From the NCBI GenBank assembly GCA_963921795.1, contig OY997649.1, positions 31,764,555 through 31,828,554 on the forward strand: a DNA stretch of 64,000 nucleotides, read 5' to 3'. Shown here one piece after another: positions 1 to 62,300 of this stretch. Source of the DNA: Nannobrachium achirus. Taxonomy: Eukaryota; Chordata; Actinopteri; Myctophiformes; Myctophidae. Made by a program: the position numbers and the translations under genes. The notes beneath the pieces are model-generated. The model searched no databases, was not told the DNA's origin, and worked only from the letters and a program-made list of their open reading frames with translations. The first letter of the stretch is position 1. Each line of letters starts with the position of its first letter.

Positions 1-1549
1 CAATAGATGGAAGCACCTACCTTCATCGGTACCAGCTCGTATAGCGGTGGTTAAAATGAATATCTTGCCCCGTGTGAATTTTGTTAGTTCAATGATCCCG
101 TTGGCACCCCCTATGGGCTATTGGAAGAAGCTGGATACCTTATTGAGAAAATATGTTTGGAACAACAAAAAGCCGAGCATTAAGTGGTCAGTACTTCAGT
201 ACAGGAAGCCTGAGGGGGGATGGGCATGTCCAAATTTCAAATTGTATCATTGGTCGTTTGTGTTGAGAAGTCTTAATGTTTGGATGGAGGATGGTAATGA
301 CTCATCATGGAAAGATTTAGAAAGAGAACTACTAAATCGGACTAAAATGAAGGATTTCCTCCTAATGGGTATTTCTACTAAGAAATGTAACTTGTACTAT
401 GGTCCAATCTTTACATGTCTACTTCAGGTGTTTAGAGCAGTAGAGAAATTTATAGGATTTGAAAGTAAATGGTGTAAATCTTCTCCGCTATGGAATAACA
501 ATAACATACTGTCTGGAGGGAGACCTTTTACTAATCGGAATTGGGAAGAGAAGGGCATTAGGACTCTTCAAGATATCAATGGGTTGAATAATATCCTCGA
601 CTTTCGAGACCTCATCACAAGATATGGTATTGATAGGAATTCCCTGTTCTTCTATTTTAGAGTGAGATCTGCTTGCAGAGCCTATAGCGTTCCCTGGGGT
701 GCAGAATTAAAAGACCATCCCATTCTTTATTGGTTTCATAGAGCTCCTAAAAGAATCGTATCATACTTGTATGATCATCTAAATTCTCAGAAATGTTCTC
801 CCTCAGTTGGAATGACGGCCTGGAATAGTGATATAACAGATGTGGGACTAGAATTGGACTGGGATGCTATTTGGGATAATGTGGCTGGGGCATCGAAGAA
901 CCCAAATCATCAGTACATACATTTCAAGTTTTGTCACAGAGCCTATGTAACACCCAGAATCAGGCATCGAATGGGATTGGCACCAAACCCATATTGCACT
1001 TTCTGTGCCCCGGGAACATTGGGCTCATTTGTTCATATGGTATGGGAATGTCCGGGAATCTCTGAGTTTTGGGGAAAGGTCATAAAAACTATATCGGACC
1101 TGACAGAGGTACAGTTTCCAGTAGACCCATTCGTGCATCTTTTGAACGATGATTCTAAACTACATCTTAGGGAAAAAACCCGGAAAGTCTGGCTTGCGGG
1201 TCTGACAGCAGCCAAAAAGATTATTGTTCAGAGATGGAATCCTCCTCATGACATTTCAGAGACGCATTGGCTGAGGAGCTTTCTGGATATTTCTTATCTT
1301 GAGCTTTCTTCTGCAAGGATTAATCAAGCACAACAAGGAACATTGACATTGTGGACGGACCTGATATCTGAACTGAAAAACCTGCTTAATAGATAATTCA
1401 TGGATCGAATATGTGAATTGTGCGTGGACAATGGAGGGGTGGGTTGGGAGGGGGATTGATATTGAAGTTGATTATTTCTTGTAAATTGTTGTTGTTGTTA
1501 TTGTTTTTATATATTGTGGAAAACAATAAAAAATTTAATGATAAAAAAA
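1..1549 (+). mobile_element. L1/Tx1-type LINE, 3' portion (left arm)
   Basis: Consists of the ORF2 end plus a 3' UTR with GTTGTTGTTGTTATTG and a terminal A-rich tail (AATAAAAAATTTAATG, then AAAAAAAG at about 1541-1549). The mirror copy is at 59150-64000. Presence in both arms means the insertion is older than the divergence of the arms. Confidence 0.85.
2..1396 (+). CDS. LINE ORF2 C-terminal part (L1/Tx1-type), cut by window edge
   Basis: Open to the window edge, in frame from base 2. It encodes the part of a LINE ORF2 after the reverse transcriptase catalytic core. Visible features are a conserved FCHRAYVTPRIRHRMG stretch and a CxxC...HxxxxxC zinc-knuckle-like motif (YCTFC, then HMVWECP), followed by FWGKV, as in L1/Tx1-group LINE C-termini. 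The 449 residues after the first Met are the same as the C-terminus of the right-hand copy at 59314-62535. It ends at TAA and is followed by a 150-base 3' UTR. The 5' portion lies upstream of the window. Confidence 0.9.
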   Translation, partial: NRWKHLPSSVPARIAVVKMNILPRVNFVSSMIPLAPPMGYWKKLDTLLRKYVWNNKKPSIKWSVLQYRKPEGGWACPNFKLYHWSFVLRSLNVWMEDGNDSSWKDLERELLNRTKMKDFLLMGISTKKCNLYYGPIFTCLLQVFRAVEKFIGFESKWCKSSPLWNNNNILSGGRPFTNRNWEEKGIRTLQDINGLNNILDFRDLITRYGIDRNSLFFYFRVRSACRAYSVPWGAELKDHPILYWFHRAPKRIVSYLYDHLNSQKCSPSVGMTAWNSDITDVGLELDWDAIWDNVAGASKNPNHQYIHFKFCHRAYVTPRIRHRMGLAPNPYCTFCAPGTLGSFVHMVWECPGISEFWGKVIKTISDLTEVQFPVDPFVHLLNDDSKLHLREKTRKVWLAGLTAAKKIIVQRWNPPHDISETHWLRSFLDISYLELSSARINQAQQGTLTLWTDLISELKNLLNR

Positions 1550-1707
1550 GATAAATACATGTGTGTTTGTTTAGTCTCTTATACTGTATATACGTAAATT
1601 GGTAGGCTATATCCACAACTACTTAGCACCTCCATTAATAGCCAAGCTCCCTTCAAGCACCCCCATTAAAGCATTTCTGGAGCCGCCACTGTAGGCCATA
1701 CATCGAG

Positions 1708-2196
1708 GTTAGGGTCAAAGATGTAGAGGATATGATGCAGTTATTCTTGAAGAGAGAGGCTGATAGACGAAACTCGGCCTTTGCCGTGTCCCTTTCATAT
1801 GGGGTCCTAGCCCCCTGGGAGAGAGAAGAGATTCTAAAGTTTGATGAAATTATTACCAATGACGGGAATAATTTCCACCCAGACGACGGAAAGTATCATA
1901 TACGCCACGCCGGAGTCTACAGTTTCAACTGTACGCTTCACGGCGAGGACCGTTGGGGACTGCAAGCTACCATTCGCCGCGGCTCTCTTGTGAACGGTCG
2001 CCTGGAGATTTCCATTCTCGCAGGTGCGATTTCATTTACACCGGGGGATACACATGGACATGCAGCCTTCAGCGTATCTATGTCTGTCAAACAATTGTGT
2101 GAAATAGGTGACGTCGTTTATGTTGAGCTTGGGCGCAAAATGCGTGTCAGGAAATCAGGGCATCATTTCAATCAATTCAATGGCTCCATGTTATGA
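1708..2196 (+). CDS. C1q-domain protein, last exon (left copy, open)
   Basis: The frame is open from a possible splice acceptor (ATCGAG|GTTAGG) to TGA at 2194-2196; the first Met in frame is at 1732. The product has a complete globular C1q domain: FAVSLSYG at the start, LKFDEIITNDGNNF (the first-strand motif FDEV.TN.G..Y), GKYHIRHAGVYSFNCTLHG (the GxYxxPxxGxYxFxxxxxG motif), GDVVYVEL near the end, and a terminal FNQFNGSML (F.GFLL-like). Family knowledge: C1q/TNF-type domains form trimers in secreted proteins. No signal peptide or collagen exon is visible upstream, where a LINE sits, so this is probably the last exon of a C1q-like secreted protein. The exact protein is not identified. Confidence 0.8.
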   Translation, partial: VRVKDVEDMMQLFLKREADRRNSAFAVSLSYGVLAPWEREEILKFDEIITNDGNNFHPDDGKYHIRHAGVYSFNCTLHGEDRWGLQATIRRGSLVNGRLEISILAGAISFTPGDTHGHAAFSVSMSVKQLCEIGDVVYVELGRKMRVRKSGHHFNQFNGSML

Positions 2197-2747
2197 TGAA
2201 ATCGCCACGCAATGGGGTCATCACGGCAGCGCGTGCGTGCGTGCGTGCGTGGCATGGTTCATCTGTTTATGCAAGAAAGATGTGGAGAGAGCAATGTTGC
2301 ATCAGCAAATATTTGAATGTTTGCAGATGTTGCACCGTAGGTTCTTACCCTAGATTGATTTTCATTGATTATTTAATATATTTCTCTAAAATGAAGCTAA
2401 AATAATATGGCAGTGTGACGTTTTCAAAATGTAGTTCAGTGAATGAATGAGAATAGAGAAAAACAATGGCAGTTGAAAACAATTATACAGTTGAAAGGGA
2501 CTTCTGTTGACTACAGTTGAAATCCATATACCTGGAATCACCTCTGCATTTAACCCATCCAGTTGAGGCGCCAACGTTTTACATCAATAGGTACTCTTCA
2601 GCGACAAGTACCAAGAACCCTCATTATCTGATTCCTAGACAACCGCTCTTAGCTGACTGAATGAGACACCCCACAGGCTTAAGCCCGAGTCATACTCTGT
2701 GTTGTGTGTTGCGTGGCAGGTTAGCCTAACTGAGGTAAGGTTACTGA

Positions 2748-2785
2748 GGTTAGGTTTAGGGTTAGGGTTAGGGTTAGGGTTAGTA
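2748..2785 (+). repeat. Interstitial telomere-like TTAGGG repeats
   Basis: Four to five uninterrupted TTAGGG units preceded by degenerate GAGGTTAGGT units. Present only in the left arm and directly followed by the 21-bp array. The right arm at 57924-58005 has a short hairpin core instead. Confidence 0.85.
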
Positions 2786-3110
2786 GGTCGGTGGAAGCGA
2801 CCACCGGTCGGTGGATTTACCTACCCGGTCGCTGGATTAGCGTCCCAGTCGGTGGAATTAGCGTCCCGGTCGATGGAATTAGCGTCCCAGTCGGTCGATT
2901 TAGCGACCCGGTCGCTCGCTTTAGTGCCGCGGTCGGTGATTTAGCGACCCGGTCGCTCCATTTAGCGACCCGGTCGCTCGCTTTAGTGCCGCGGTCGGTG
3001 ATTTAGCGACCCGGTCGCTCCATTTAGCGACCCGGTCGCTCGATTTTGCGACCCGGTCGCTGAAAACTACCGACCACGTCGCGACCCGGTTGTAGGTCGC
3101 TAAATGATCT
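2786..3110 (+). repeat. GC-rich 21-bp tandem array with dyad symmetry
   Basis: About fifteen units of roughly 21 bases, consensus CGGTCGCTCGATTTAGCGACC. Each unit contains GGTCGCT and AGCGACC in inverted orientation. A 63-base higher-order unit is repeated at about 2910-3035. Because 21 is a multiple of 3, frames through it stay open and encode a 7-residue repeat, which I take as a by-product. No counterpart in the right arm. Confidence 0.88.
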
Positions 3111-3587
3111 CGCCCTCTCTCCTTGCATATCTGCTATTTTCATGTAGAAACCAGGCATTAGTCTTGTGCAGTACAGTCCAGGATTGACCTCAAAGTCAGA
3201 TTTGAAAGATTGTTGAATGTTGCATGTTTTCAGAACCACTTTCATTACTTCTCTGTTAAAGAAACTAAATGATCACATCCTGTATTCGTAAGTAGGCCTA
3301 CATTCAGAAAGTTCATCCTATAGCTGAATGGTGTTGAAATAAGTACTAAGATGGCCATGCTATTCTTTGGGGAGAACTTTTTCTCAGGTTATTCAGGCGT
3401 CAGCTTAATCAAACAGACAGTCAAAAACCTATGATCTTTGGTTCATACTAGGCCAGTATATGGATGGCTGCATACAGTATCAGCACACATTTTAATTCAA
3501 GTCAAATCCAACAACAGGTTGTATGAAATATCAATGCCTGTCTGTTTTAGAGAAGTCCTATAGTCACCCCCCTTCTGTCTCGGTAAC

Positions 3588-3589
<2 letters not shown>

Positions 3590-3671
<82 letters not shown>

Positions 3672-3672
3672 A
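3590..3672 (+). repeat. (GTCT)n microsatellite
   Basis: About twenty GTCT units. The mirror tract in the right arm (57422-57478, CAGA) is shorter. The frames across it encode SVCL repeats and are not genes. Confidence 0.95.
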
Positions 3673-3746
3673 GATGTGCCATTTCAAAACTTCACACATC
3701 CTGCAATTGGCAAGACAGCAGATTTCCAGTGGATTGGCAGAACATT

Positions 3747-3771
3747 GAGCTTGTAGATCAGCTATTTTTGC
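3747..3771 (+). repeat. Half copy of the hairpin core repeat
   Basis: GAGCTTGTAGATCAGCTATTTTTGC is one arm of the recurring core (described in pieces: GAGCTTGTAGATC then GCTATTTT). No second arm is adjacent. The mirror is near 57331-57350. Confidence 0.7.
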
Positions 3772-4409
3772 AATTTTTATGACCTTCTCTGACTTTGAAG
3801 TTTAAATATACCCATGAAGGATTCTGCTTTTCAATGGGAATGGAGTGGTTGCTTGCCATTTGCGGGTTTATGCAAAAATACGCTCCATTATCCATAAGAA
3901 TTAGAAAGGCCATGTTCTGGAAAAGAGTAATAAAGCCTGAAGACTTGAAACAGCACATCTGTAAGAAGGAGCCCTCTCCTGTTATAAAAAGATATAATCA
4001 GAATGAAAATGGTTAGAATACATTAAACATTCAAATAAAAAGACAACAATATACTGCATGCATTCAGTCAAGTGCAGAAGGCAAATCCTATTGAGAAACA
4101 CTGATATGTGAAGGTGAACACAGCTGCACATGACAGGAGTTGTATACCTCAATCTACTAAACGAGAATGCCCTGCTAGGTGCTTCCCTTTCCACCAAGAA
4201 ATACAAGCTCAAACACTGAGTCAAAAAAAGTTAAATTATTATTTATTTAGTTTAATAAAAATGTACAGTAATTAAATTACAAGCTTGTTTTAAAAGCAAT
4301 CGCTGGCAGAGATCTATGCTCCACAGGGAGCAGCTGTCTAGTTGTATAGGACTATGTTCTTTTGTGATTAGATTCTGAAATAAATGTGGGTCAGGTGTTT
4401 ATAATATGG

Positions 4410-4690
4410 AGCGCCACTGTAAGCTCTTACCTCTTATGTATACTATCAATGTTGTCTGATTTATAGAAATTGGGTCAGTGAGGTGTGTGTGTGATGGGTC
4501 GGCTTAGATATATTAGATTGGTTGTCAGCGTGTATTCACTGACTCAGAGAAGCATATTATCATATGCACTGTGTTATCATGGCTTCTAGGAAAAAGCCCT
4601 CTGCCCCATAACCCACATCCACCCATCCGTATGTGCACATTACTGTAGTGGGTTCCAGAAATCAAGAGGCTGGACCTGGGGCTGGTTATC
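4410..4690 (+). repeat. Diverged direct repeat, copy 1
   Basis: Resembles 6500-6835 in the same orientation. Shared landmarks are AGATTGGTTNTCAGCGTGT, CACTGACTCAGA, AGCATATTA, ATGGCTTCTA, CACCCATCC and AGTGGGTTCCAG. Function unknown; it could be an old duplication or two copies of an uncharacterised repeat. Both copies also occur in the right arm. Confidence 0.65.
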
Positions 4691-4693
4691 AAA

Positions 4694-5784
4694 TTCAATT
4701 CAAAGAACTTTATTTTCCTTTCGGAACTTTGTTTGTGCAGTGGTTAAAAACATACATTCACAACATAAAAACATAAATGTCACTATGGTAAAAAGCACTA
4801 CGTTTAAAAACTAGTTCTTTAAAAAATGTAAAAAGATCATTATAGAAATTGTGTATGAATAAATAAATAAATAAGCAAGGTAAATGACAAACTGCAAAAC
4901 ATATGTTCACTAGAGTCCATCAGGTTGGGGGGGGGGCAGTCCAGACATGCTCCACCAGACCTAGGTGTTCAGCAGTCTGATGGAGGTGGGCACAAAGCTG
5001 TTTAAGCCCCTTTTTTTAAAGGTCGAGGATCTGAATCGACGGCCTGAGGGCATTAAATTAAAATAGTTGTGGAGGGTGTGTGTATTATCCTCAACTATTT
5101 GAGAGGCCTTTTTTTCTGTCCGTTTTTTATGGATGCTGCTGAGTGGCTCCTGGTTCATGCCGATGATTTTCCCACTGATCCTGACAACCCTGTCAAGGGA
5201 ATTCCTGTTGTTGGCCCACGTCACACCAAACCATGCCGTGATGTTAAAAGTCATTATGGACTCTACAAATGACTTATAGAAGGCCTGCAGGATTGATGGT
5301 CGTACCTGGAGCTTCCTCATCTTCCTCAGGAAGAACAGTCGTTGTTGGCACTTGGAATGAATGTTCTCAACGTTGGTCTTGAACGTGAGCTTGTGGTCGA
5401 TGGTGGTGCCAAGGTATTTGTATTCCTCGACTCGCTCTATTTCCTGGCCATTTATCTTCAGGGCTGGAGGGGGAGTGGGCGGGTCCTGCCTAAAGTCCAC
5501 CAGCAACTCCTTTGTCTTGCTGGGGTTTAGGTCCAGGTAGTTGTTTTTGCACCACTCCGCAAACCTGTCCATTTCCCTGATAATACGGTCATTGGAGTTT
5601 GTGGAATCAATGATGACCGTGTCATCCGAATACTTTATGAGCAGTAGCTCGGGGTCTGAGCTGCTGCAATCATCCGTATACAGGGTGAACAGTACTGGTG
5701 AGATAACAGAACCTTGTGGAGCCCCCGTGGAGATGGTTCTGTTGGAGCTGTAGCTACTGTTAAATCTAACAGTAGCTACAGCTC
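4694..5784 (-). mobile_element. Rex1/CR1-type LINE, 5'-truncated, left arm only
   Basis: A 1.09 kb insertion flanked by CAAA on both sides (4690-4693 and 5785-5788). The right arm reads straight through the empty site near 56393-56412 (TTTCCTGTG then TTTGATAACC). The element points leftward: its 3' end is the AATTGAATT-rich sequence near 4694 and its 5' end has a 21-bp fold-back. It encodes the C-terminal half of a reverse transcriptase. Presence in only one arm dates it after the arms became distinct sequences, or makes it allelic if the arms are haplotypes. Confidence 0.9.
4961..5767 (-). CDS. Reverse transcriptase C-terminal half of the left-only LINE
   Basis: The open frame begins inside the RT domain. 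It has TGAPQGSVISPVLFTLYTDD (motif B region) and the catalytic box as KYSDDTVII, so YSDD rather than the usual YADD/FADD. After that come EYKYLGTTID, CQQRLFFLRKMRKL and SFVESIMTFNITAWFG, typical of Rex1/CR1-like fish LINE C-termini, then a basic tail ending SFVPTSIRLLNT. The endonuclease and N-terminal RT are missing through 5' truncation, so the copy cannot move by itself. The first residues of the frame come from the fold-back and the flank, not from the element. Confidence 0.85.
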   Translation of the reverse strand, partial: RFNSSYSSNRTISTGAPQGSVISPVLFTLYTDDCSSSDPELLLIKYSDDTVIIDSTNSNDRIIREMDRFAEWCKNNYLDLNPSKTKELLVDFRQDPPTPPPALKINGQEIERVEEYKYLGTTIDHKLTFKTNVENIHSKCQQRLFFLRKMRKLQVRPSILQAFYKSFVESIMTFNITAWFGVTWANNRNSLDRVVRISGKIIGMNQEPLSSIHKKRTEKKASQIVEDNTHTLHNYFNLMPSGRRFRSSTFKKRGLNSFVPTSIRLLNT

Positions 5785-5787
5785 CAA
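5742..5787. repeat. 21-bp perfect inverted repeat at LINE 5' junction
   Basis: Arm 5742-5762 (TTGGAGCTGTAGCTACTG...) and its perfect reverse complement at 5767-5787, with a 4-base loop AATC. It sits exactly at the 5' end of the LINE insertion and is absent from the right arm. It looks like snap-back synthesis during target-primed integration. Confidence 0.9.
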
Positions 5788-5859
5788 ACACAGGAAAAGG
5801 TGCATTCATAAAACTCAGAATTTATCTCAGGATTTTTCCTGAGATGTTAAAATAATAAT

Positions 5860-6390
5860 AATAATGTCTGAACAAGTTTGTTAATGGGACTCAATAAAAC
5901 ACCAAGGTTTTTGGCAACAGACCTGACATTGTTGGATAAAATAATTTGTTCACTGATCTAGGACAATCATGAAAATGTCAGCTTCAAAAGTTAAATTCAA
6001 GGACATCCAATTTATAATATCTGCTAGAGAGTGAACTAAATGGGAAAAGATGATATAGTTGTTAGGCCTCACTGGAAGATTAAATTGGAGATTTCATGCC
6101 TATACGTGTCATTCCTACCTAGAGTATACTGTAATGTCAAGGGGAAGGAAAAGAATTATGTATAATTTAAATGTAGGAAGGGGAAACTGATACAAAAGAA
6201 AACCCTGCAATAGTGCCAGATAGTAAACCACTGCTGTAATCTATTGATAATAATATTATGATCAATGGTGTCAAATGCACTCAAGTCCAAACAAAACAAA
6301 TTTGGAACCTTCACCGTTGGTCTGCGTTGACTAAAACACTCTAGAATTTGAACACCATCACCATTCTTTAGCCACATCTGTTACAAATAT
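5860..6390 (-). mobile_element. L2-type LINE reverse transcriptase remnant (left)
   Basis: Translated fragments on the minus strand match L2-type RT landmarks: LDLSAFDTIDHNIIINRLQQWF (the DLSAAFDTIDH motif), a LADIINWMSLNF-like stretch, and NVRSVAKNLGVL (the VRNLGV motif). The pieces are in different frames with gaps, so it is an old, decayed copy. The mirror fragment is at about 55840-56340 on the plus strand. Confidence 0.75.
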
Positions 6391-6499
6391 AACATATAGA
6401 ATCAAGCTTAGTAGAAGCAATAAAATAATTAAAGATAAAATCCGTATTTGACAGTGATCTAACATATAAAGACCCAATTTCACGGCCGTATTAGAAGAT

Positions 6500-6595
6500 G
6501 GAGCAACAGGCTTAATGCATATGAGTTTATGTTCTCTGATAGAAATCAGGTCAGCGAAGAGAGTATGTGTGCGTGCGTGCGTGTGTGTGTGTGTC

Positions 6596-6641
<46 letters not shown>

Positions 6642-6835
6642 GGCGTGTAGATTAGATTGGTTCTCAGCGTGTGGTCACTGACTCAGAAAAGCATATTAAC
6701 ATACATGCTCATGCATGGCTTCTAAGAGAAAATCTCTCTGTGCCATAAAACGCACATACACCCATCCATATGGCGGTGACCATTACTCTAGTGGGTTCCA
6801 GGAATCAAGCGGTGGAGATGGGGTTGATTATGAAA
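6500..6835 (+). repeat. Diverged direct repeat, copy 2
   Basis: Partner of 4410-4690. A GT microsatellite (about 6571-6637) has expanded inside this copy. Confidence 0.65.
6571..6637 (+). repeat. (GT)n microsatellite
   Basis: Interrupted GT/GCGT tract. The right-arm equivalent, 55471-55636, is much longer and begins with a C12 run and ACCC units. Confidence 0.95.
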
Positions 6836-6849
6836 TATAGGAAAACAAT

Positions 6850-7600
6850 GAGGTGCACACATACAGCTATACGTCCTGAAGACACACTCTAGGCTCGATT
6901 TCAAAGAGGACCAAAATCATAATGATTGTGTATAGCCGATGTAAAAAGAAAAGAAAAAGGTTTATAATGAAAGGGAAGCTTCAGGGCCAACCACATGTTG
7001 GGCTGTCGGACCAGTGCTGCGTCTTCAACGAAACATTCTAAAGTAAACATCGACTAACTAAACGTAGCAATAATAAACAATATAGAACACATTATAGAAA
7101 CAAACAGGGAACACATTGCAACACAAGTAAACATACTGTACACAAAATGTGTGTTGCCAATTGTTCTTCTGTCCAGTCTGTGACTGTGACGGTTACGTCA
7201 GGAGATGGAGCCGGTAAAAGGGAACACATGCAGCAGCCAGTAGCAGTGGAGCATAAATATAAGTAGAGTATACTGTACAGTACATTGTACAGTATGGTCC
7301 CTGCTGCACACAAGCAAGAGTCTAATAATTCAATTCAGTGCAATCTGTACTGAATCTTTGGATGTAGGAAGTTACTTGATATGCAAAGTAACAATGTGCC
7401 AATGTTCTAAACGTGAGTTTAGCAGCATAAAGTGAGCTGGAGTAGCCACACCCTTAGGCGCCATGGCATAGGCCTACAAATTGGTCAAATACATACATAC
7501 TGTAAACATTAACTGGTAACTAAATCTAAAAGCCACGGTAACTAAAATTCAAAACACATAGAAATGTTAATGTTATAAATAGTGTGTAACTAACAGAATC
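6850..7600. other. Noncoding stretch upstream of opn4x exon 2
   Basis: I looked here for the missing first coding exon of melanopsin (N-terminus and first membrane helix) and found no frame resembling it. No other gene seen. Mirrored at about 54510-55300. Confidence 0.5.
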
Positions 7601-7614
7601 ACATTTTATTTTCC

Positions 7615-7616
<2 letters not shown>

Positions 7617-7702
<86 letters not shown>

Positions 7703-7713
7703 TGCGTGCGTGT
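7617..7713 (+). repeat. (TG)n(TGCG)n microsatellite abutting a splice acceptor
   Basis: About 33 TG units then seven TGCG units run directly into the AG of opn4x exon 2 at 7714-7715, replacing a normal pyrimidine tract. The right arm has (TGAG)n plus (TG)n here, 54160-54506. Confidence 0.95.
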
Positions 7714-7715
7714 AG

Positions 7716-10700
7716 TAACAAGAAGCTTCGCAACTTGCCAAACTACTTTATAATGAATCTGGCTGTGAGTGATTTCCTCATGGCCTTCACTCAGTCACCC
7801 ATCTTCTTCATCAACTGTCTGTATAAGGAATGGGTGTTCGGTGAAATGGGTAATTCTCTTCTCTAAATTCTCTTCCCTTTTCTTCAAAATCTATATCAAA
7901 TGCAGATGTACTGTATAGATCAATATAAGTCAGGTCAGTGTACTAGTAAATGAGATTAGGTGTGTGTCCTGTGTTTACAGGCTGTAAGATGTATGCTTTC
8001 TGTGGAGCCCTGTTTGGCATTACTTCCATGATAAACCTGCTGGCCATCTCCATCGACCGCTACCTGGTTATCACCAAGCCCCTGAAGGCCCTCCGCTGGA
8101 GCTCCAAACGAAGAACCACCATTGCCATCCTGTTGGTCTGGCTGTACTCTCTGGCCTGGAGTCTAGCACCTCTCGTTGGCTGGAGTGAGTTTATAAACCA
8201 GGAAATGCTTTTTTAGATCAGGGGTTCTCAAACCTTTTTAGGCTGTGACCCCCAAAATAAACATATTTGAACTGGGGACCCCCACCCTGACAAGCACTCG
8301 GAATTGTAGGTATTACATTTAATGTGACTCGGTTCCACAGATAAATATTGTGAAAACAGCCAAACTACTGGTACATGCTCACAACGACTCGCACTGCGAG
8401 GCATTGTGAGCATGTAGATCGGCTATTTTCACAATGTTCGCCTCTTGCTCTCTTAATATATGGCTAGTTTGGTATTAAAACGGTCTTGAAAGTCCTTAAT
8501 TTGTGACTTTATAAATGTGCAGATACCCTGTATACACTTATACTGTATGTTGGTTTGTTTACCGTTGAGTGAGAAATATACATTACATTAATCATCTGGG
8601 GACCCCACAAAATAATTTGGGGACCCCAAATGGGGTCCCGACCCCAAGTTTGAGAACCACTGTTTTAGATCATCATGGAGCTAGGGGTCGACATGCCACT
8701 GTTTTGGCCACGAGCATACGTACACAACGCTAGTGAAAGAGAATTTACCGCAATTCAGCTGTTCATCACACACACATGGTCAAACATGTTTTATCAGCCA
8801 TCGTTTTCCCTTTTCCCTTTCCCTTCTAGGTTCCTATATTCCTGAGGGACTGATGACTTCCTGTACCTGGGATTATGTCACATATTCACTGGCCAATCGG
8901 AGCTACACCTTGATGCTGTGCTGCTTTGTTTTCTTCATTCCACTGGCAATAATCTTCTACTGTTATCTCTTCATGTTCCTGGCAATACGAAAAGCTAGCA
9001 GGTACTTTATATTTGTGTTGTGTATACTTTAAAATGTGTTTGTTTGTTTGTTTGTTTGTATGTTTGTCTAAAGTCATTAATCATGACCAAACATAGCTGA
9101 ATACAGGGACGTGCTGGCCATTGGGAAAAGCGGGACAATTCCCGAACGGCCGGTTCATTTCCGGCCGGTCCAGGCCGGCCATTAGGAAATCATCATACAA
9201 GGCTGTTACACAAAAGTAGTGAAAACAGCAGATCTACAAGCACACAACGCCTCGCGGTGCGAGGCGTTGTGTGCTTGTAGATCGGCTGTTTTCACTAGTT
9301 TAAATCATTTTAAAAATTATAAATACAAAACAAAAGGTTTCCAACCGAAAGTGACGAAATATAACTCATGTACAGTAATTGGCCCACTGGCTTGTCACTT
9401 GTCATGATCTGAAATGGCAAATCTTTGAGTAGCAGCAGCGCTATAGAGAGAGATCTCTCTCTATAACGCGCAATGAGGGCCTCTCCAACTCTTTTTCCCG
9501 GGCTGAATCAGGGGCCCAGCACGTCCCTGGCTGAATAACTGAGTCAAGTCATGCAAGTGCCAAGTCTCATAAAGTTGTTTTTCATAATGGACACCAATGG
9601 CTTCCTCAAGACAAATAATTAATAATAATACAGAATGTTTCAGCATGAAGTAACTTTTATCCCTCTTAACTCCATAAATTATTGTCTAGCCAAATCCCTA
9701 ACCTTTCCTCATTCTGGTGATGTGAAAACATAGACCCCCAGTAATAAAGGATGAGAAAACTTACAACAGCTCTTATTGCAGCAGATATGACCCCACGCTG
9801 TGTTCATTATGATGTACACTATACTGTAGTGTTTCTCACACTTTTACATTTCAAGGTCTCCCCTTCACTTGGCTTGTATGGGTCAATTTAGACCCCCAAA
9901 AAGGAACCCGAAAAGTCCCTGGAATACACTGTGAGAACCACTGCACTATACCACTCAGGAAATATACAATCTCTGCCTGCCTCCGGCTGGTGGAACAAGT
10001 ACTCTCTATGTTTTACTTAAGTAAAAATAGTACCACAGTCTAGAAATAGTTGAGTACTTGAGTAAAAGTATTGGCATCAAAATATACTTACACTACCAAT
10101 GTAAAAGTACTAAAATCTATATAAATAGGACCTACGGAAAGTGGTTCATGTATGTTTTGTAATGATCTATCCAGTATTACATCTATCTACAATAATAACA
10201 CATGTTTTGTTACAGTATGTCAGGTTTTCATTTGATCTGTTTCGTCCTGTTTCTGCTGCAGGGAAGTGGAACGACTGGGGGCCCAGGTGAGGAAATCCAC
10301 CTTGATCCAGCAGAAGACCATCAGGACTGAGTGGAAGTTGGCTAAGATTGCCTTCGTGGTCATCGTGGTTTATGTCCTCTCCTGGTCGCCATATGCCTGT
10401 GTGACGCTCATTTCCTGGGCAGGGTAAATAGCCATAATGCGCTCAGAAAAACTGAAAACAGCAACAGCTAGCAAATGAAATACAGGAAACTTATATGGTT
10501 TCATTCAGTGGAAATCTACAAGCTCTGCTATTTTCAGGGAATTTGGGGAATTTGGGGTAGAGGGATAAAGTATATAGAGCACTGTATGTCCCATTTAGAT
10601 ATGTTCTAAACAATACTAGTATTCCTTTCAATCCGGGATCCTGTCATTTTAGATGTTGCTGTATTTATTGCAGCATACATTTTTATTTATCTTTTTAATA

Positions 10701-48722: not shown

Positions 48723-48730
48723 CGATAGAG

Positions 48731-50000: not shown

Positions 50001-50061
50001 GTATGCAAATATCTGACCTGTGATTGGCTAGTAGTGTGTGAATCTCTCATTCTCCCATTCT

Positions 50062-50239
<178 letters not shown>

Positions 50240-50719: not shown

Positions 50720-51006
50720 CAGGGACGTGCTGGCCATTGGGAAAAGCGGGACAACTCCCGAACGGCCCAGGCCGGCCATTAGGAAAAAAATTAAAATAAA
50801 ATGTCGGCCTTCGTTCCATTTTGGGGGCTGGGCGGCCAACAAAGTAAATCGTCACTGTCGGGCAGAAACCTTGTATCTCCAAGTTTCAAATTTGTACATT
50901 TTTTCGCAAAGCAAAGTCCTGCTTCATCATACAAGGCCGTCGTACAAAAGTAGTGAAAACAGCCGATCTACAAGCACACAACGCCTCGCAGTGCGAGGCG
51001 TTGTGT
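50720..51006 (-). mobile_element. hAT-like element cut by the right-arm deletion
   Basis: Same insertion as left 12771-13355 (target GTCTCTGT then CAGGGACGTGCTGG). It breaks off inside the hairpin core after GAGGCGTTGTGT at 51006 and continues as opn4x intron sequence AATATTCTGACC. Confidence 0.9.
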
Positions 51007-51999: not shown

Positions 52000-52131
52000 C
52001 AGTGGTTCTCAAAGTGGATTCCAGGGACTTTGCAGGTTCCTTTTTGGGGGTCTAAATTGACCCATACAAGCCTATAACTCTGTCAGAGTTAAGGGGAGAA
52101 CTAGAAATGTAAAAGTGTGAGAAACACTACA
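52000..52131 (-). mobile_element. Short hAT-like element (right)
   Basis: Begins CAGTGGTTCTCAAAG and ends GTGTGAGAAACACTACA, with GTATAGTG on both sides (51992-51999, 52132-52139). Mirror of 9825-9943. Confidence 0.75.
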
Positions 52132-52310
52132 GTATAGTGTACATCATAATGAACACAGCGTGGGGTCATATCTGCTGCAATAAATGTTGTAACTGCTGTT
52201 GTACGTTTTCTCATCCTTCATTACTGTCTGGGGGTCTATGTTTTCATATCACCAGAATGACGAAAGGTTATGGATTTGGCTAGACAAGTTACTTCATGCT
52301 GAAGCATTCT

Positions 52311-52735
52311 TTTTTTTTTCTTTATAATTTTTATCCCCACGATTTTGCAACCCATTTTATCACCCAGTGCAAATTGCCTATGTAATCCTGGGTTCTGCTC
52401 TCCCTCTGCCACGCCTGGGGAGACAACAGACTGACCTCATGCTTCCTTCAATGCATGAGTAGTCCAAGTTGTTCCTTTCTTTTCACCTGACAGGGGGGAT
52501 TTTCCCCGGGATGGACATAGCACGTGAAAGGAACACGTTATTCCAACCAGTTCCTTTCCCCTCCATCAGGCGCCCCAGCTGGCATTATTGAGACCAGGAT
52601 TACTGCATGTTTTTGTGAGGGTATCAACCCTAGGAGACACGGGGAGAACATGCAAACTCCACACAGAAAGTGGGGATCGAACCCAGGACCTTCTAGCTGT
52701 GAGGCAAAGCGCTAACCACTGCGCCACCGTGCCCC
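52311..52735 (-). mobile_element. tRNA-derived SINE, right arm only
   Basis: Flanked by a perfect 16-base target duplication (52295-52310 and 52736-52751). On the minus strand the head reads GGCGCAGTGGTTAGCGC (A-box), then GGGTTCGATCCCC (B-box), followed by GTGTGGAGTTTGCATGTTCT, a common fish SINE body, and a T-rich/A-rich tail at 52311. The left arm has the empty site near 9636-9652. Confidence 0.93.
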
Positions 52736-53265
52736 CATGCTGAAGCATTCTGTATTATTGTTATTATTTGTCTTGAGGAAGCCATTGGTGTCCATTATCA
52801 TGAAAAACAACTTTATGACTTGCATGACTTGACTCAGTTATTCAAAGTTTGGTCATGATTAATGACTTTAGACAAACATACAAACAAACACATTTTAAAG
52901 TATACACAACACAAATATAAAGTACCTGCTGGCTTTTCGTATTGCCAGGAACATGAAGAGATAACAGTAGAAGATTATTGCCAGTGGAATGAAGAAAACA
53001 AAGCAGCACAGCATCAAGGTGTAGCTCCGATTGGCCAGTGAATATGTGACATAATCCCAGGTACAGGAAGTCATCAGTCCCTCAGGAATATAGGAACCTA
53101 GAAGGGAAAAGGGAAAAGGGAAAACGATGGCTGATAAAACATGTTTGACCATGTGTGTGTGATGAACAGCTGAATTGCGCTAAATTCTCTTTCACTAGCT
53201 TTGTGTACGTATACTCGTGGCCAAAACAGTGGCATGTCGACCCATAGCTCTATGATGATCTAAAA

Positions 53266-53646
53266 CAGTGTTTCTCAAACTTTTGTGGGGTCCCCAAATG
53301 ATTAATGTAATGTATTTTTCTCACTCAACGTTAAACAAACCAACATACAGTATAAGTGTATACAGGGTATCTGCACATTCATAAAGTCACAAATTAAGGA
53401 CTTTCAAGACCGTTTTAATACCAAACTGGCCAAATATTAAGAGAGCAAGAGGCGAACATTGTGAAAATAACCGATCTACATGCTCACAACACTAGCTGTA
53501 GTTTGGCTGTTTTCACAATAAATATCTGTGGAACCGAGTCACATTAAATGTAATACCTACAATTCCGAGTGCTTATCAGGCTGGGGGTCCCAAGTTCAAA
53601 TATGTTTATTTTGGGGGTCACAGCCTAAACATGTTTGAGAACCCCT
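53266..53646 (-). mobile_element. hAT-like element in opn4x intron (right)
   Basis: Mirror of 8219-8662, with ATCTAAAA and AACTAAAA as flanks. About 60 bases shorter; its hairpin core (53460-53520) has lost part of one arm. Confidence 0.88.
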
Positions 53647-54159
53647 GAACTAAAATCAAAAAGCATATCCTGGTTTATAAACTCACTCCAGCCAAGGAGA
53701 GGTGCTAGACTCCAGGCCAGAGAGTACAGCCAGACCAACAGGATGGCAATGGTGGTTCTTCGCTTGGAGCTCCAGTGGAGGGCCTTCAGGGGCTTGGTGA
53801 TAACCAGGTAGCGGTCAATGGAGATGGCCAGCAGGTTTATCATGGACGTAATGCCAAACAGGGCTCCACAGAACGCATACATCTTACAGCCTGTAAAAGC
53901 AGGACACACACCTAATCTCATTTTCTAGTACACTGACCTGATTTATATTGATCGATACAGTACATCTGCATTTGATATCGATTTTGAAGAAAAGGGAAGA
54001 GAATTTAGAGAAGAGAATTACCCATCTCGCCGAACACCCATTCCTTATACAGACAGTTGATGAAGAAGATGGGTGACTGAGTGAAGGCCATGAGGAAATC
54101 ACTCACCGCCAGATTCATTATAAAGTAGTTTGGCAAGTTGCGAAGCTTCTTGTTACTGC

Positions 54160-54508
<349 letters not shown>

Positions 54509-54509
54509 G

Positions 54510-55470
54510 GAAAATAAAATGTGATTCTGTTAGTTACACACTATTTATAACATTAATTAGTTTTGAATTTTAGTTACCGTGGCTTTTAGATTTAGTTACC
54601 AGTTAATGTTTACAGTATGTATGTATTTGACCAATTTGTAGGCCTATGCCATGGCGCCTAAGGGTGTGGCTACTCCAGCTCACTTTATGCTGCTAAACTC
54701 ACGTTTAGAACATTGGCACATCATTACTTTGCATATCAAGTAACTTCCTACATCCAAAGATTCAGTACAGATTGCACTGAATTGAATTATTAGACTCTTG
54801 CTTGTATGCAGCAGGGACCATACTGTACAATGTACTGTACAGTATACTCTACTTATATTTATGCTCCACTGCTACTGGCTGCTGCATGTGTTCCCTTTTA
54901 CCGGCTCCATCTCCTGACGTAACCGCTCAGTAGAAGAGTCACAGACTGGACAGAAGAACAATTGGCACCACACATTTTGTGTACAGTATGTTTACTTGTG
55001 TTGCAATGTGTTCCCTGTTTGTTTCTATAATGTGTTCTATATTGTTTATTATTGCTAAGTTTAGTTAGTCGATGTTTACTTTAGAACGTTTCGTTGAAGA
55101 CGCAGCACTGGTCCGACAGCCCAACATGTGGTTGGCCCTGAAGCTTCCCTTTCATTATAAACCTTTTTCTTTTCTTTTTACATCGGCTATACACAATCAT
55201 TATGATTTTGGTCCTCTTTGAAATCGAGCCTAGAGTGTGTCTTCAGGACGTATAGCTGTATGTGTGCACCTCATTGTTTTCCTATATTTCATAATCAACC
55301 CCATCTCCACCGCTTGATTCCTGGAACCCACTAGAGTAATGGTCACCGCCATATGGATGGATATGTGCGTTTTATGGCACAGAGAGATTTTTTCTTAGAA
55401 GCCATGAGCATGTATGTTAATATGCTTTTCTGAGTCAGTGACCACACGCTGAGAACCAATCTAATCTACA
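54510..55470. other. Noncoding stretch (right)
   Basis: Mirror of 6638-7615. No opn4x first exon or other gene seen. Confidence 0.5.
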
Positions 55471-55639
<169 letters not shown>

Positions 55640-55839
55640 TCTCCTCACTGACCTGATTTCTATCAGAGAACATAAACTCATATACATTAAGCCTGTTGCT
55701 CCATCTTCTAATACGGCCGTGAAATTGGGTCTTTATATGTTAGATCACTGTCAAATACGGATTTTATCTTTAATTATTTTATTGCTTCTACTAAGCTTGA
55801 TTTTATATGTTATATTTGTAACAGATGCGGCTAAAGAAT

Positions 55840-56340
55840 GGTGATGGTGTTCAAATTCTAGAGGGTTTTAGTCAACGCAGACCAACGGTGAAGCTTGAGT
55901 GCATTATTTGACACCATTGATCATAATATTCTTATCAATAGATTACAGCAGTGGTTTAGTATCTGGCACTATTTTGCAGATGCTAATATTTTGCATATTG
56001 GTTTTCTTTTGTATCAGTTGAATGTTTCCCCTTCCTACATTTCCTTCCCCTTGACATTACAGTATACTCTAGGTAGGTAGGCATGACACATATAGGCATG
56101 AAATATCCAATTTAATCTTCCAGTGAGGCCTAACAACTATATCATCTCTCCCCATTTAGTTCACTCTCTAGCAGATATTATAAATTGGATGTCCTTGAAT
56201 TTATCTTTTGAAGCTGAAATTTTCATTATTGTCCCAGACAATTACATTACATTGTATCCAACAATGTCAGGTCTGTTGCCAAAAACCTTGGTGTTTTATT
56301 GAGTCCCATTAACAAACTTGTTCAGACATTATTATTATTT
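55840..56340 (+). mobile_element. L2-type LINE RT remnant (right)
   Basis: Mirror of 5860-6390. Contains FDTIDHNILINRLQQWF and an NVRSVAKNLGVLLSP-like piece, in broken frames. Confidence 0.7.
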
Positions 56341-56392
56341 TAACTTCTCAGGAATAAATCCTGAGATAAATTCTGAGTTATGAATGCACCTT

Positions 56393-56412
56393 TTCCTGTG
56401 TTTGATAACCAG
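56393..56412. other. Empty site of the left-only LINE
   Basis: TTTCCTGTGTTTGATAACC reads through without the 1.09 kb insertion seen on the left at 4694-5784. It confirms the insertion boundaries. Confidence 0.85.
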
Positions 56413-57421
56413 CCCCAGGTCCAGGCTCTTGATTTCTGGAACCCACTACAGTAATGTGCACATACGGATGGGTGGATGTGGGTTATGGGGCAGAGGGCTT
56501 TTTCCTAGAAGCCATGATAACACAGTGCATATGATAATATGCTTCTCTGAGTCAGTGAATACACGCTGACAACCAATCTAATATATCTAAGCCGACCCAT
56601 CACACACACACCTCACTGACCCAATTTCTATAAATCAGACAACATTGATAGTATACATAAGAGGTAAGAGCTTACAGTGGCGCTCCATATTATAAACACC
56701 TGACCCACATTTATTTCAGAATCTAATCACAAAAGAACATAGTCCTATACAACTAGACAGCTGCTCCCTGTGGAGCATAGATCTCTGCCAGCGATTGCTT
56801 TTAAAACAAGCTTGTAATTTAATTACTGTACATTTTTATTAAACTAAATAGATAATAATTTAAGTTTTTTTGACTCAGTGTTTGAGCTTGTATTTCTTGG
56901 TGGAAAGGGAAGCACCTAGCAGGGCATTCTCGTTTAGTAGATTGAGGTATACAACTCCTGTCATGTGCAGCTGTGTTCACCTTCACATATCAGTGTTTCT
57001 CAATAGGATTTGCCTTCTGCACTTGACTGAATGCATGCAGTATATTGTTGTCTTTTTATTTGAATGTTTAATGTATTCTAACCATTTTCATTCTGATTAT
57101 ATCTTTTTATAACAGGAGAGGGCTCCTTCTTACAGATGTGCCGTTTCAAGTCTTCAGGCTTTATTACTCTTTTCCAGAACATGGCCTTTCTAATTCTTAT
57201 GGATAATGGAGCGTATTTTTGCATAAACCCGCAAATGGCAAGCAACCACTCCATTCCCATTGAAAAGCAGAATCCTTCATGGGTATATTTAAACTTCAAA
57301 GTCAGAGAAGGTCATAAAAATTGCAAAAATAGCTGATCTACAAGCTCAATGTTCTGCCAATCCACTGGAAATCTGCTGTCTTGCCAATTGCAGGATGTGT
57401 GAAGTTTTGAAATGGCACATC

Positions 57422-57422
57422 T

Positions 57423-57478
<56 letters not shown>
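57422..57478 (+). repeat. (CAGA)n microsatellite (right)
   Basis: About fourteen units; the left tract has about twenty. Confidence 0.95.
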
Positions 57479-57923
57479 GTTACCGAGAAGAAGGGGGGTG
57501 ACTATAGGACTTCTCTAAAACAGACAGGCATTGATATTTCATACAACCTGTTGTTGGATTTGACTTGAATTAAAATGTGTGCTGATACTGTATGCAGCCA
57601 TCCATATACTGGCCTAGTATGAACCAAAGATCATAGGTTTTTGACTGTATGTTTGATTAAGCTGACACCTGAATAACCTGAGAAAAAGTTCTCCCCAAAG
57701 AATAGCATGGCCATCTTAGTACTTATTTCAACACCATTCAGCTATAGGATGAACTTTCTGAATGTAGGCCTACTTACGAATACAGGATGTGATCATTTAG
57801 TTTCTTTAACAGAGAAGTAATGAAAGTGGTTCTGAAAACATGCAACATTCAACAATCTTTCAAATCTGACTTTGAGGTCAATCCTGGACTGTACTGCACA
57901 AGACTAATGCCTGGTTTCTACAT

Positions 57924-57991
57924 GAAAATAGCAGATATGCAAGCTTACAATTTGATGCATTGACAGCTTGTGCAGTAGATATGCTATTTTC
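57924..57991. repeat. Hairpin core repeat at the site of the left-arm array
   Basis: GAAAATAGCAGATATGCAAG ... CTTGTGCAGTAGATATGCTA then TTTTC. In the left arm one arm of this hairpin survives (TTGCATATCTGCTATTTTC near 3123-3141) and the other is replaced by the TTAGGG/21-bp array. Confidence 0.8.
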
Positions 57992-58505
57992 GGGCCCCAC
58001 ACAACACAGAGTATGACTCAGGCTTAAGCCTGTGGGGTGTCTCATTCAGTCAGCTAAGAGCGGTTGTCTAGGAATCAGATAATGAGGGTTCTTGGTACTT
58101 GTCGCTGAAGAGTACCTATTGATGTAAAACGTTGGCGCCTCAACTGGATGGGTTAAATGCAGAGGTGATTCCAGGTATATGGATTTCAACTGTAGTCAAC
58201 AGAAGTCCCTTTCAACTGTATAATTGTTTTCAACTGCCATTGTTTTTCTCTATTCTCATTCATTCACTGAACTACATTTTGAAAACGTCACACTGCCATA
58301 TTATTTTAGCTTCATTTTAGAGAAATATATTAAATAATCAATGAAAATCAATCTAGGGTAAGAACCTACGGTGCAACATCTGCAAACATTCAAATATTTG
58401 CTGATGCAACATTGCTCTCTCCACATCTTTCTTGCATAAACAGATGAATCATGCCACGCACGCACGCACGCGCTGCCGTGATGACCCCATTGCGTGGCGA
58501 TTTCA

Positions 58506-58994
58506 TCATAACATGGAGCCATTGAATTGATTGAAATGATGCCCTGATTTCCTGACACGCATTTTGCGCCCAAGCTCAACATAAACGACGTCACCTATTT
58601 CACACAATTGTTTGACAGACATAGATACGCTGAAGGCTGCATGTCCATGTGTATCCCCCGGTGTAAATGAAATCGCGCCTGCGAGAATGGAAATCTCCAG
58701 GCGACCGTTCACAAGAGAGCCGCGGCGAATGGTAGCTTGCAGTCCCCAACGGTCCTCGCCGTGAAGCGTACAGTTGAAACTGTAGACTCAGGCGTGGCGT
58801 ATATGATACTTTCCGTCGTCTGGGTGGAAATTATTCCCGTCATTGGTAATAATTTCATCAAACTTTAGAATCTCTTCTCTCTCCCAGGGGGCTAGGACCC
58901 CATATGAAAGGGACACGGCAAAGGCCGAGTTTCGTCTATCAGCCTCTCTCTTCAAGAATAACTGCATCATATCCTCTACATCTTTGACCCTAAC
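58506..58994 (-). pseudogene. C1q-domain exon with nonsense codon (right copy)
   Basis: Same exon as 1708-2196. The codon GGA of the left copy (1912-1914, in RHAGVYSF) is TGA here (complement of 58788-58790). The frame is otherwise kept on both sides, giving IRHA-stop. The stop falls in the middle of the C1q domain, before most of its strands, so the product would not fold as a C1q head. A shorter (GCGT)n tract also distinguishes the 3' side. Confidence 0.88.
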
Positions 58995-59313
58995 CTCGAT
59001 GTATGGCCTACAGTGGCGGCTCCAGAAATGCTTTAATGGGGGTGCTTGAAGGGAGCTTGGCTATTAATGGAGGTGCTAAGTAGTTGTGGATATAGCCTAC
59101 CAATTTACGTATATACAGTATAAGAGACTAAACAAACACACATGTATTTATCTTTTTTTTTTTTTTTATCATTAAATTTGTTATTGTTTTCCACAATATA
59201 TAAAAACAATAACAACAACAACAATTTACAAGAAATAATCAACTTCAATATCAATCCCCCTCCCAACCCACCCCTCCATTGTCCACGCACAATTCACATA
59301 TTCGATCCATGAA

Positions 59314-62300
59314 TTATCTATTAAGCAGGTTTTTCAGTTCAGATATCAGGTCCGTCCACAATGTCAATGTTCCTTGTTGTGCTTGATTAATCCTTGCAGA
59401 AGAAAGCTCAAGATAAGAAATATCCAGAAAGCTCCTCAGCCAATGCGTCTCTGAAATGTCATGAGGAGGATTCCATCTCTGAACAATAATCTTTTTGGCT
59501 GCTGTCAGACCTGCAAGCCAGACTTTCCGGGTTTTTTCCCTAAGATGTAGTTTAGAATCATCGTTCAAAAGATGCACGAATGGGTCTACTGGAAACTGTA
59601 CCTCTGTCAGGTCCGATATAGTTTTTATGACCTTTCCCCAAAACTCAGAGATTCCCGGACATTCCCATACCATATGAACAAATGAGCCCAATGTTCCCGG
59701 GGCACAGAAAGTGCAATATGGGTTTGGTGCTAATCCCATTCGATGCCTGATTCTGGGTGTTACATAGGCTCTGTGACAAAACTTGAAATGTATGTACTGA
59801 TGATTTGGGTTCTTCGATGCCCCAGCCACATTATCCCAAATAGCATCCCAGTCCAATTCTAGTCCCACATCTGTTATATCACTATTCCAGGCCGTCATTC
59901 CAACTGAGGGAGAACATTTCTGAGAATTTAGATGATCATACAAGTATGATACGATTCTTTTAGGAGCTCTATGAAACCAATAAAGAATGGGATGGTCTTT
60001 TAATTCTGCACCCCAGGGAACGCTATAGGCTCTGCAAGCAGATCTCACTCTAAAATAGAAGAACAGGGAATTCCTATCAATACCATATCTTGTGATGAGG
60101 TCTCGAAAGTCGAGGATATTATTCAACCCATTGATATCTTGAAGAGTCCTAATGCCCTTCTCTTCCCAATTCCGATTAGTAAAAGGTCTCCCTCCAGACA
60201 GTATGTTATTGTTATTCCATAGCGGAGAAGATTTACACCATTTACTTTCAAATCCTATAAATTTCTCTACTGCTCTAAACACCTGAAGTAGACATGTAAA
60301 GATTGGACCATAGTACAAGTTACATTTCTTAGTAGAAATACCCATTAGGAGGAAATCCTTCATTTTAGTCCGATTTAGTAGTTCTCTTTCTAAATCTTTC
60401 CATGATGAGTCATTACCATCCTCCATCCAAACATTAAGACTTCTCAACACAAACGACCAATGATACAATTTGAAATTTGGACATGCCCATCCCCCCTCAG
60501 GCTTCCTGTACTGAAGTACTGACCACTTAATGCTCGGCTTTTTGTTGTTCCAAACATATTTTCTCAATAAGGTATCCAGCTTCTTCCAATAGCCCATAGG
60601 GGGTGCCAACGGGATCATTGAACTAACAAAATTCACACGGGGCAAGATATTCATTTTAACCACCGCTATACGAGCTGGTACCGATGAAGGTAGGTGCTTC
60701 CATCTATTGATATCATCTTCAATTTTCTTAGAAACCAAAGTGAAATTTGTTTTAGCTATAGTTGATAGTGATGTACTTATTTTAATACCCAAATAGGTCA
60801 CTTCATCTGCCACAACAATCTGAGGAGGGATGACAACTACGTTTCTGTCCACATTCACAAGCATTAAAGCAGATTTTGATAGATTAACCTTGTAACCCGA
60901 AAAGTATCCAAACCTCTCCAATAATTCTAACACTACTGGGAGCGATTGTTGCACCTCTGCCATGTATACCAACGTATCATCTGCATAAAGAGAAATAGAA
61001 TGCGATGTTGCACCTACAGTAATAGGGGAGATTCGAACACAGCTCCTAATAAGTTGCGCCATGGGTTCAATGGATAAATTAAACATTAAAGGGGAAATTG
61101 GATCTCCTTGGCGAACTCCACGCTTTATATCAAACAGTTCTGAAAAACCTCCTCCAACATTCACCCGGGCTGATGGATTAGCATATAAAGTCTGAATCAT
61201 TTTAATAAAATTTTCCCCAAATTTGAATTTCTCCAACACCTTCCAGAGATAGGGAAACTCCAGCCTATCAAAGGCCTTCTCCGCGTCAACAAACAGTAGG
61301 CCACACCCCCTTGGGATCTTGCCTGATGCACCCAGAATGTGGAGGAGTCTTCGAACATTATCAGCTGCGAGACGGCCCTTTAAAAAAACGGTCTGATCTG
61401 GAATAATTAGTTTCCCAATGACTGTCTCGAGCCTGCTGGCTAGAACTTTAGAAAATATTTTTAAATCAGCATTAATCAATGATATAGGCCTGTAATTTGC
61501 ACATTCCAAGGGGTCCTTTCCGGGTTTTGGGATAAGTGTAATCAAAGCTGTGTTCAAATCTCTGTGAAAAAAGCCCTTTTCAATCGCATAGTTCAATGTT
61601 TCCAACCATAGTGAGCCAATGACCTCCCATAGTTCTAGATACAGCTCTACTGGAATACCATCAATACCAGGTGTACGGCCCTTGTTAGTATCCTTCACAG
61701 CTTTGAGTAATTCCTCTAATGAAATAGGCGCATCCAATTTTTCTGACTCCTCTGATGTTAAGCTAGGAAGGTCTAACTCTTCAAAATATCCTGTAAAGTC
61801 CTCTTCTGTAGGAACTCTGCCCCCTGTGTAAAGCTCCCTAAAATAATTCTTAAATGTATCATTTATATCCTCTGTTGAGGACACTAAACCCCTATTGACA
61901 CATCTAATGGTTGGGATAGCCCTTTTGGCTTCTTGACGTTTAAGCGTTAACGCTAACAAATGGCTAGGTCTACTTCCCTCTGCATAATATTTATGTTTAG
62001 TGATATGAATCATGTATTCTGCCCTGCGTCTTAATAAATCGTTTAATTCTGCCTGCTTAGTCTTGAGCTCATTTTCGGTTGAACTGGTGTAGTTCCCCTC
62101 AAGTAGGTCCTCTAAGTCCTTACATTGCTGTTCTAATCGAGTAATGTTTTGTAGGCGGGTCTTATGCAAATTGGAACTAAACCAGATTGCATTACTTCTA
62201 ATGAAACCTTTAACTGTCGCCCAGACTACAGTCAAATCAGTAACACTATCTTTGTTTATGGAAATAAACTCGGTCACTTTAGATTTCAGTTGCGTAATGT

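Follow-up and report, generated by a model that had tools for sequence, protein, structure and literature searches.

The question raised by this locus is whether a long mirror of genes, introns and intergenic DNA in the genome of the myctophid fish Nannobrachium achirus is a real inverted duplication, or whether an assembler joined the two haplotypes of one locus back to back. The window analysed is the whole stretch of 64,000 nucleotides at positions 31764555-31828554 of contig OY997649.1 (C12), in a genome of 1.66 Gb and 564 contigs; 100 kb of C12 to each side of the window were also compared. All results rest on the assembled sequence of one genome. Bare positions refer to the window and those with a contig name to that contig; u denotes the distance from the palindrome centre, and L1 and R1 are the left and right arms of the palindrome in the window (P1). 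Of the two origins proposed in the original prediction, our results favour the first and disfavour the join of a single-copy locus, given four core arms, a centre that occurs twice with the same asymmetries, and three mutually diverged versions. The locus is probably a real array of inverted amplicons, formed by two consecutive palindromes of opposite orientation, P1 and P2, which have the same 24-base centre and whose arms may have been homogenised by gene conversion.

Two palindromes with the same centre

A 24-base spacer at 31919-31942 with mirrored arms had been predicted, and comparison of the window with itself confirmed both. The inverted self-alignment of 16880-47030 comprises 30,212 columns with 99.49% identity, and beyond it colinear inverted pieces reach positions 1 and 60709. 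The arms had been described as near-perfect and at least 29-32 kb long; the mirror is present, but it runs on to about C12:31740994 on the left and about C12:31857002 on the right, giving arms of about 55 kb, about half of which lie inside the window, and it is near-perfect only at u 0-15 and 26-42 kb. Other sequence amounting to 173,817 bases contained no inverted pairs of at least 200 bp at 85% identity or more except a self-palindromic element of 0.6 kb and two pairs of about 260 bp with wide spacing. Chance is no option as the origin of a mirror of such length. The 0.6-kb element is located at C12:31735940-31736550, and similar sequence is found within 0.5 kb of the palindrome centre.

Divergence between the P1 arms is a mosaic. 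The left core arm (16880-31918, forward strand) and the right core arm (31943-47030, reverse strand) are 99.5% identical; their 15,092 aligned columns contain 13 substitutions and 57 gap bases. Summed over aligned columns only, substitutions amount to 13 of 14,996 (0.09%) at u 0-15 kb, 269 of 6,817 (3.9%) at u 15-26 kb, 32 of 12,508 (0.26%) at u 26-42 kb and 240 of 7,913 (3.0%) at u 42-56 kb, where kb 19 and 44-46 have no alignment and everything above u 32 kb is outside the window. This alternation supports the array. The diverged segments at u 15-26 kb correspond to 5785-16880 on the left (forward strand), which also differs from the right arm by indels of up to 2.1 kb, and to 47031-56404 on the right (reverse strand). 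The outer near-identical blocks are 1-4693 (forward strand), which is part of u 26-42 kb and extends upstream of the window, and 56401-64000 (reverse strand), of which 56401-60709 pairs with the left arm inside the window and the remainder with C12 upstream of it. If neutral sites change at 0.5-1 x 10^-8 per year, a divergence of 3% between the arms would correspond to roughly 1.5-3 million years.

The same centre recurs in inverted orientation 71.6 kb downstream, where the exact reverse complement of the spacer at C12:31868070-31868093 forms the centre of P2. The left arm of P2, c3 (12.4 kb), occupies C12:31855700-31868069 and the right arm, c4 (9.3 kb), C12:31868094-31877369. A partial fifth arm, c5 (C12:31877376-31882173), follows a sequence jump at the end of c4 and runs into a gap of 5,000 N, while at the far left a fragment, copy 0 (C12:31740994-31741920), resembles part of the core at 94%. 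P1 and P2 are 99.8% alike, yet their outer attachments differ. The array alternates in orientation and consists of at least five arms and one fragment. The stretch free of N extends from a 200-N gap (C12:31669474) to the 5,000-N gap (C12:31882174) that ends the array. A further 5,000-N gap lies at C12:31924674, and since these gaps recur at one fixed size they are likely placeholders. No resemblance of at least 400 bp at 85% was found between the left flank and the flank after the gap.

In genome searches only the best-ranked candidates were scored, so that all copy counts are lower bounds. The 501-bp centre had one further full-length match at 100%, inverted, at C12:31867812-31868312, and this search found no unduplicated copy of the centre. 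At the centre, the core was joined to nothing but its own mirror in this genome (all 24 candidates scored), which supports the array. Two asymmetries between the arms of P1 are the same in P2, namely a substitution at u=53 (T at 31865, C at 31996) and a 6-base indel at u of about 140, with the six bases lacking at 31777 and present in the right arm. Relatives of the near-centre sequence in other parts of the genome, one covering u=53 and two covering u=140, suggest that L1 and c4 carry the derived base and that R1 and c3 carry the inserted six bases. A centre present twice in inverted orientation, identical over 501 bp and with the same spacer, and both asymmetries in the matching arms, support the array. 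Short dispersed pieces also occur near the centre. As single-stranded nucleic acid, 142 bases around the centre were predicted to fold into one hairpin (-74 kcal/mol, z -20.7).

A 3-kb core probe found four places at about 100% on C12, one at 87-92% on contig C8 and otherwise short pieces among the best 40 of 1,163 candidates. A dispersed transposon as the palindrome itself was considered and rejected, as the long matches in this set were only those four and the diverged one on C8. The C8 relative (C8:14715545-14728047) is single and non-palindromic and matches u 2.0-9.4 kb in pieces with about 85-95% identity; it is not the source of the spacer, because homology stops at u 2.0 kb. It starts 2.5 kb after a 5,000-N gap. 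The probe for the zone of an opsin-like gene in the arms returned L1, R1, c5 and a dispersed repeat (best 40 of 7,763 candidates), and the non-repeat part of an outer-arm probe returned L1, R1 and the unplaced contig C336 (best 40 of 136 candidates).

Below u 9.28 kb all four core arms can be compared. Here 12 positions vary, 2 by arm type, 3 by palindrome, 6 in one arm only and 1 as a multi-state microsatellite; none of the 12 pairs L1 and c3 against R1 and c4. Among the 11 variable positions of three arms at u 9.28-12.37 kb, R1 and c3 agree against L1 in 9, L1 and c3 in 1, and L1 and R1 in 1. At u=4385 both P1 arms have T and the C8 outgroup has C, which makes T the derived state. The differences between P1 and P2 also support the array, although these counts are low.

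The far outer arm of P1, here called z, borders on core sequence both at the left end (copy 0 and z) and on the right (z and c3), and the boundary falls on the same base in both. On the core side of this junction the two copies agree in 94.1% of 946 columns (20 mismatches, 36 gap columns), and on the z side in 93.3% of 343 (8 mismatches, 15 gap columns); they thus differ by about 2% substitutions plus gaps. A boundary common to such diverged copies supports the array. Contig C336 continues a few dozen bases beyond this junction. Adjoining the junction, c3 is 99.88% identical to R1 (2 mismatches in 1,683 columns), whereas copy 0 reaches 94.3% (18 mismatches and 36 gap columns in 946). The near-identity of c3 to R1 right up to the junction is as homogenisation to the end of homology would leave it, and together with the mosaic divergence this difference points to arms homogenised within the array. 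Beside the junction a tandem-repeat stretch, about 80% alike in the two places, is located at C12:31738664-31740047 and at C336:49712-50262.

Two segments contain three mutually diverged versions. At u 12.6-17.5 kb substitutions amount to 2.87% between c5 and L1, 2.97% between c5 and R1 and 1.60% between L1 and R1; in the outer 2.5 kb of this range all three pairs differ by 2.1-4.8% per 500-bp step, so that L1, R1 and c5 are three versions at u 15-17.5 kb. L1, R1 and C336 are three versions at u 48-54 kb, with 2.11% (C336 and L1), 3.03% (L1 and R1) and 3.40% (C336 and R1) at u 48-51 kb, and 3.03%, 2.68% and 2.68%, respectively, at u 52-54 kb. Contig C336 was considered as the other haplotype of the left arm and rejected, since it is close to the left arm at u 40-47 kb only. 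Near its inner join, the 2,601 bases of C336:29399-31999 are the same as those at the end of the unplaced contig C191 (166-2766), hence the assembly contains redundant contigs. The inner join, about where a colinear C191 would end, may itself be an assembly join; the count of versions makes no use of it.

Proposed origin of the array

The array most likely began with a fold-back or a replication template switch, which would have produced a head-to-head junction with a loop of hairpin size. A further inverted duplication would then have copied the palindrome, and the arms would have drifted by 2-5% and gained indels. Gene conversion from arm to arm may keep the core of 9-15 kb and the second block at u 26-42 kb near-identical, while the segments between them drift.

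Several observations weigh against this scenario. The core is not richer in GC than the arms or flanks (0.402 vs 0.42-0.45), which counts against GC-biased conversion, because this would raise the GC content. Recent re-duplication of the core instead of conversion could also give identical cores, although a re-duplication producing c3 would have to stop at the old junction. Just three positions are palindrome-specific with both arms alike, and two of these are indels, one of them of just one base within an A-run, and possible products of polishing. At u 40-47 kb C336 and L1 differ by only 0.30%, with R1 2.4% from both, and some versions are thus near enough for alleles. Furthermore, a 5,000-N gap terminates the locus. 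Palindromes that are long and have a short spacer have been described as unstable wherever they were introduced and as rare in natural genomes (PMC10766186). In a second source, instability grows with arm length, with arm identity and with a shorter spacer (PMC7999016), which makes the 24-base loop the surprising part.

In its simple form, in which the assembler placed both haplotypes of a single-copy locus back to back, the haplotype explanation would account for the allele-like differences between the arms (substitutions, insertions and microsatellite length) and for opsin-like exons that are open in both. It leaves unexplained four near-identical core arms in addition to c5 and copy 0, the same centre at two places, and three mutually diverged versions at two segments where one diploid should have at most two. 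A diploid with three versions cannot owe them to two haplotypes of a single-copy locus, and a pooled or polyploid sample would be needed to escape the argument; we therefore regard such a join as very unlikely. The same argument can be applied to other loci without reads, by seeking the same junction and asymmetry twice and by counting diverged versions. Less easily dismissed is a milder haplotype problem, in which the core palindrome is real and the surrounding assembly partly wrong: the outer arms of P1 might stem from two haplotypes, or from a paralogue, rather than from one molecule, or P1 and P2 might be two alleles of one palindrome that were chained. Near-identical arms of 15 kb, about the length of common long reads, could let an assembler exit through the other haplotype or a paralogue, and the 99.8% likeness of P1 and P2, the fixed-size gap at the end of the locus and the redundancy of C336 and C191 are all consistent with this. 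Nevertheless, the diverged mirror copy at the far left also has the junction of z and core that links P1 to P2, with the same base as boundary, and the outer attachments of the two palindromes are unlike, so that we hold such a partial error to be unlikely, though it deserves to be kept in view.

A fold-back read, in which both strands of one molecule are read in series and taken into the assembly, appears extremely improbable. A short unpaired centre would suit a snapped-back end. In one survey, fold-backs accounted for about 0.55-0.6% of genomic nanopore reads; there were virtually none in PacBio HiFi data, judged from three PacBio samples (PMC12870357), which would weigh against this origin if HiFi reads underlie the present assembly. 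Against such a read stand the arm differences at u=53 and about 140, which are alike in both palindromes, and 55-kb arms with stretches diverged by 3-4%, which cannot be one molecule.

Indels and genes in the arms

The statement that the arms differ by single-base changes and microsatellite lengths, and hence do not represent one molecule read twice, was borne out. Besides the diverged stretches, microsatellites differ in length from arm to arm (GA x15 vs TC x19, AG x22 vs CT x98). The latter, a CA/AG microsatellite with 22 AG units on the left and 98 CT units on the right, lies at the outer boundary of the core (16763-16923 and 46987-47352). Insertions with target duplications and a deletion of 2.1 kb had also been proposed. 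Indels are indeed present, and a left-arm-only segment of 1.09 kb (4694-5784, reverse strand), located over a reverse-transcriptase open reading frame (ORF), has CAAA repeated at its ends. The ends of the 2.1-kb left-arm-only segment (10931-13049, forward strand), however, have just 1 base in common, and it may thus reflect either a deletion in the right arm or an insertion without target duplication. A stretch of 9.25 kb with internal direct and inverted repeats (C12:31846142-31855390) is present in the right arm only and is probably a mobile element. Dispersed repeats occur inside the arms as well.

A Pfam scan of ten ORFs or exon pieces matched six (one C1q, two 7tm_1, one Reeler, one SIR2 and one reverse transcriptase) and gave no match for the remaining four. 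The window had no Rfam match at gathering scores and no match in a tRNA scan. A gene that we take, following the original prediction, to be sirt2-like has a region in each arm (25641-29896, reverse strand, in which one exon piece scores as SIR2; 33971-38234, forward strand, by arm comparison). The four core arms agree fully in nine pieces of this zone, eight of which were found on C8 at 75-98%; as the pieces are the longest open frames in approximate exon ranges, several probably off the coding frame, they carry no claim of an intact gene. A Reeler-domain exon lies at 20303-20556 (reverse strand) in the left arm, and its counterpart by arm comparison at 43341-43592 (forward strand).

The opsin-like gene, presumably opn4x by the same reasoning, is located at 7690-14503 (forward strand) and at 49399-54181 (reverse strand). 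Its five exon pieces, two of which score as 7tm_1, are found in both arms, differ by 12 synonymous and 8 non-synonymous changes in 1,146 bases and contain no stop in either long arm. A C1q-domain ORF (1645-2193, forward strand) has a right-arm copy (58509-59057, reverse strand) whose frame is interrupted by a stop at codon 90 of the stretch compared; the left arm has no such stop. A protein search with this ORF gave 53 candidates, of which none reached an E value of 0.001. The right outer block also contains a putative LINE reverse-transcriptase ORF of 1,103 residues (59314-62625). Extra copies of such genes might conceivably be of benefit.

Comparison with known systems

For ape sex chromosomes, palindromes have been defined by inverted arms that are 8 kb or longer and 98% or more identical, a spacer of up to 500 kb and less than 80% repetitive sequence (PMC11168930). 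The core arms of 15 kb at 99.5%, the 9.3 kb common to the P2 arms and the 24-base spacer lie within the limits for arm length, identity and spacer. Ape X and Y palindromes, likewise with arms of at least 8 kb at 98%, are described as kept alike by conversion (PMC11168930; PMC3723533), and for human Y P6 the inferred tracts of conversion average 2,068 bp and reach more than 9 kb at most (PMC3723533). P6 differs in its large spacer (more than 31 kb compared) and in an identity of 99.97% over arms of 110 kb, in contrast to 24 bases and a mosaic of 0.1-4% here. GC-enriched arms, as reported in these ape studies (PMC11168930; PMC3723533), do not occur in our locus.

Inverted gene pairs of Caenorhabditis also combine a long, near-identical, gene-bearing inverted repeat with a short spacer and are thought to be actively maintained; at the F44E5.4 locus, however, the arms have 2,207 bp and the spacer 126 bp, compared with a core of 9-15 kb and 24 bases here (PMC1803023). 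In the ODIRA amplicons, inverted copies meet at short interrupted inverted repeats, which results in palindromic junctions with short spacers (PMC10766183, PMC10766186). These are inverted triplications in yeast with a spacing of 40-80 bp, and the interruptions are much larger in the human cases compared (PMC10766183, PMC10766186), whereas the array described here alternates and its native junction sequence was not found. Nothing in the literature consulted was recognised as this locus, which says little about the published record.

By architecture, the pair W.P1 and W.P2 of the willow Salix purpurea appears to be the closest known system. There, two consecutive palindromes span about 200 kb, a stretch common to four arms is more than 99% identical and the outer arms are less alike (PMC7023750). 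A partial 'pre-arm' adjoins them, comparable to copy 0, related copies are found on other chromosomes, and gene conversion has been proposed (PMC7023750). The W.P1 spacer, however, measures 2.6 kb in the text and 3,586 bp in the table of that report, against 24 bases in our locus, and the gene content is unrelated (PMC7023750). Moreover, the willow locus has been proven female-specific (PMC7023750). It is a doubtful, though attractive, idea that the locus studied here is a vertebrate counterpart of the willow W palindromes, an array of several palindromes that bears genes and lies in a sex-determining or other non-recombining region, whose palindromes with 24-base loops would have lasted through 2-5% of arm drift, kept by frequent conversion between arms and contrary to the quick resolution expected of them. 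If the array is real, the germline would carry two such centres together with drifted arms and homogenised cores, a natural case for studying the survival of palindromes and the possible part of conversion in their protection.

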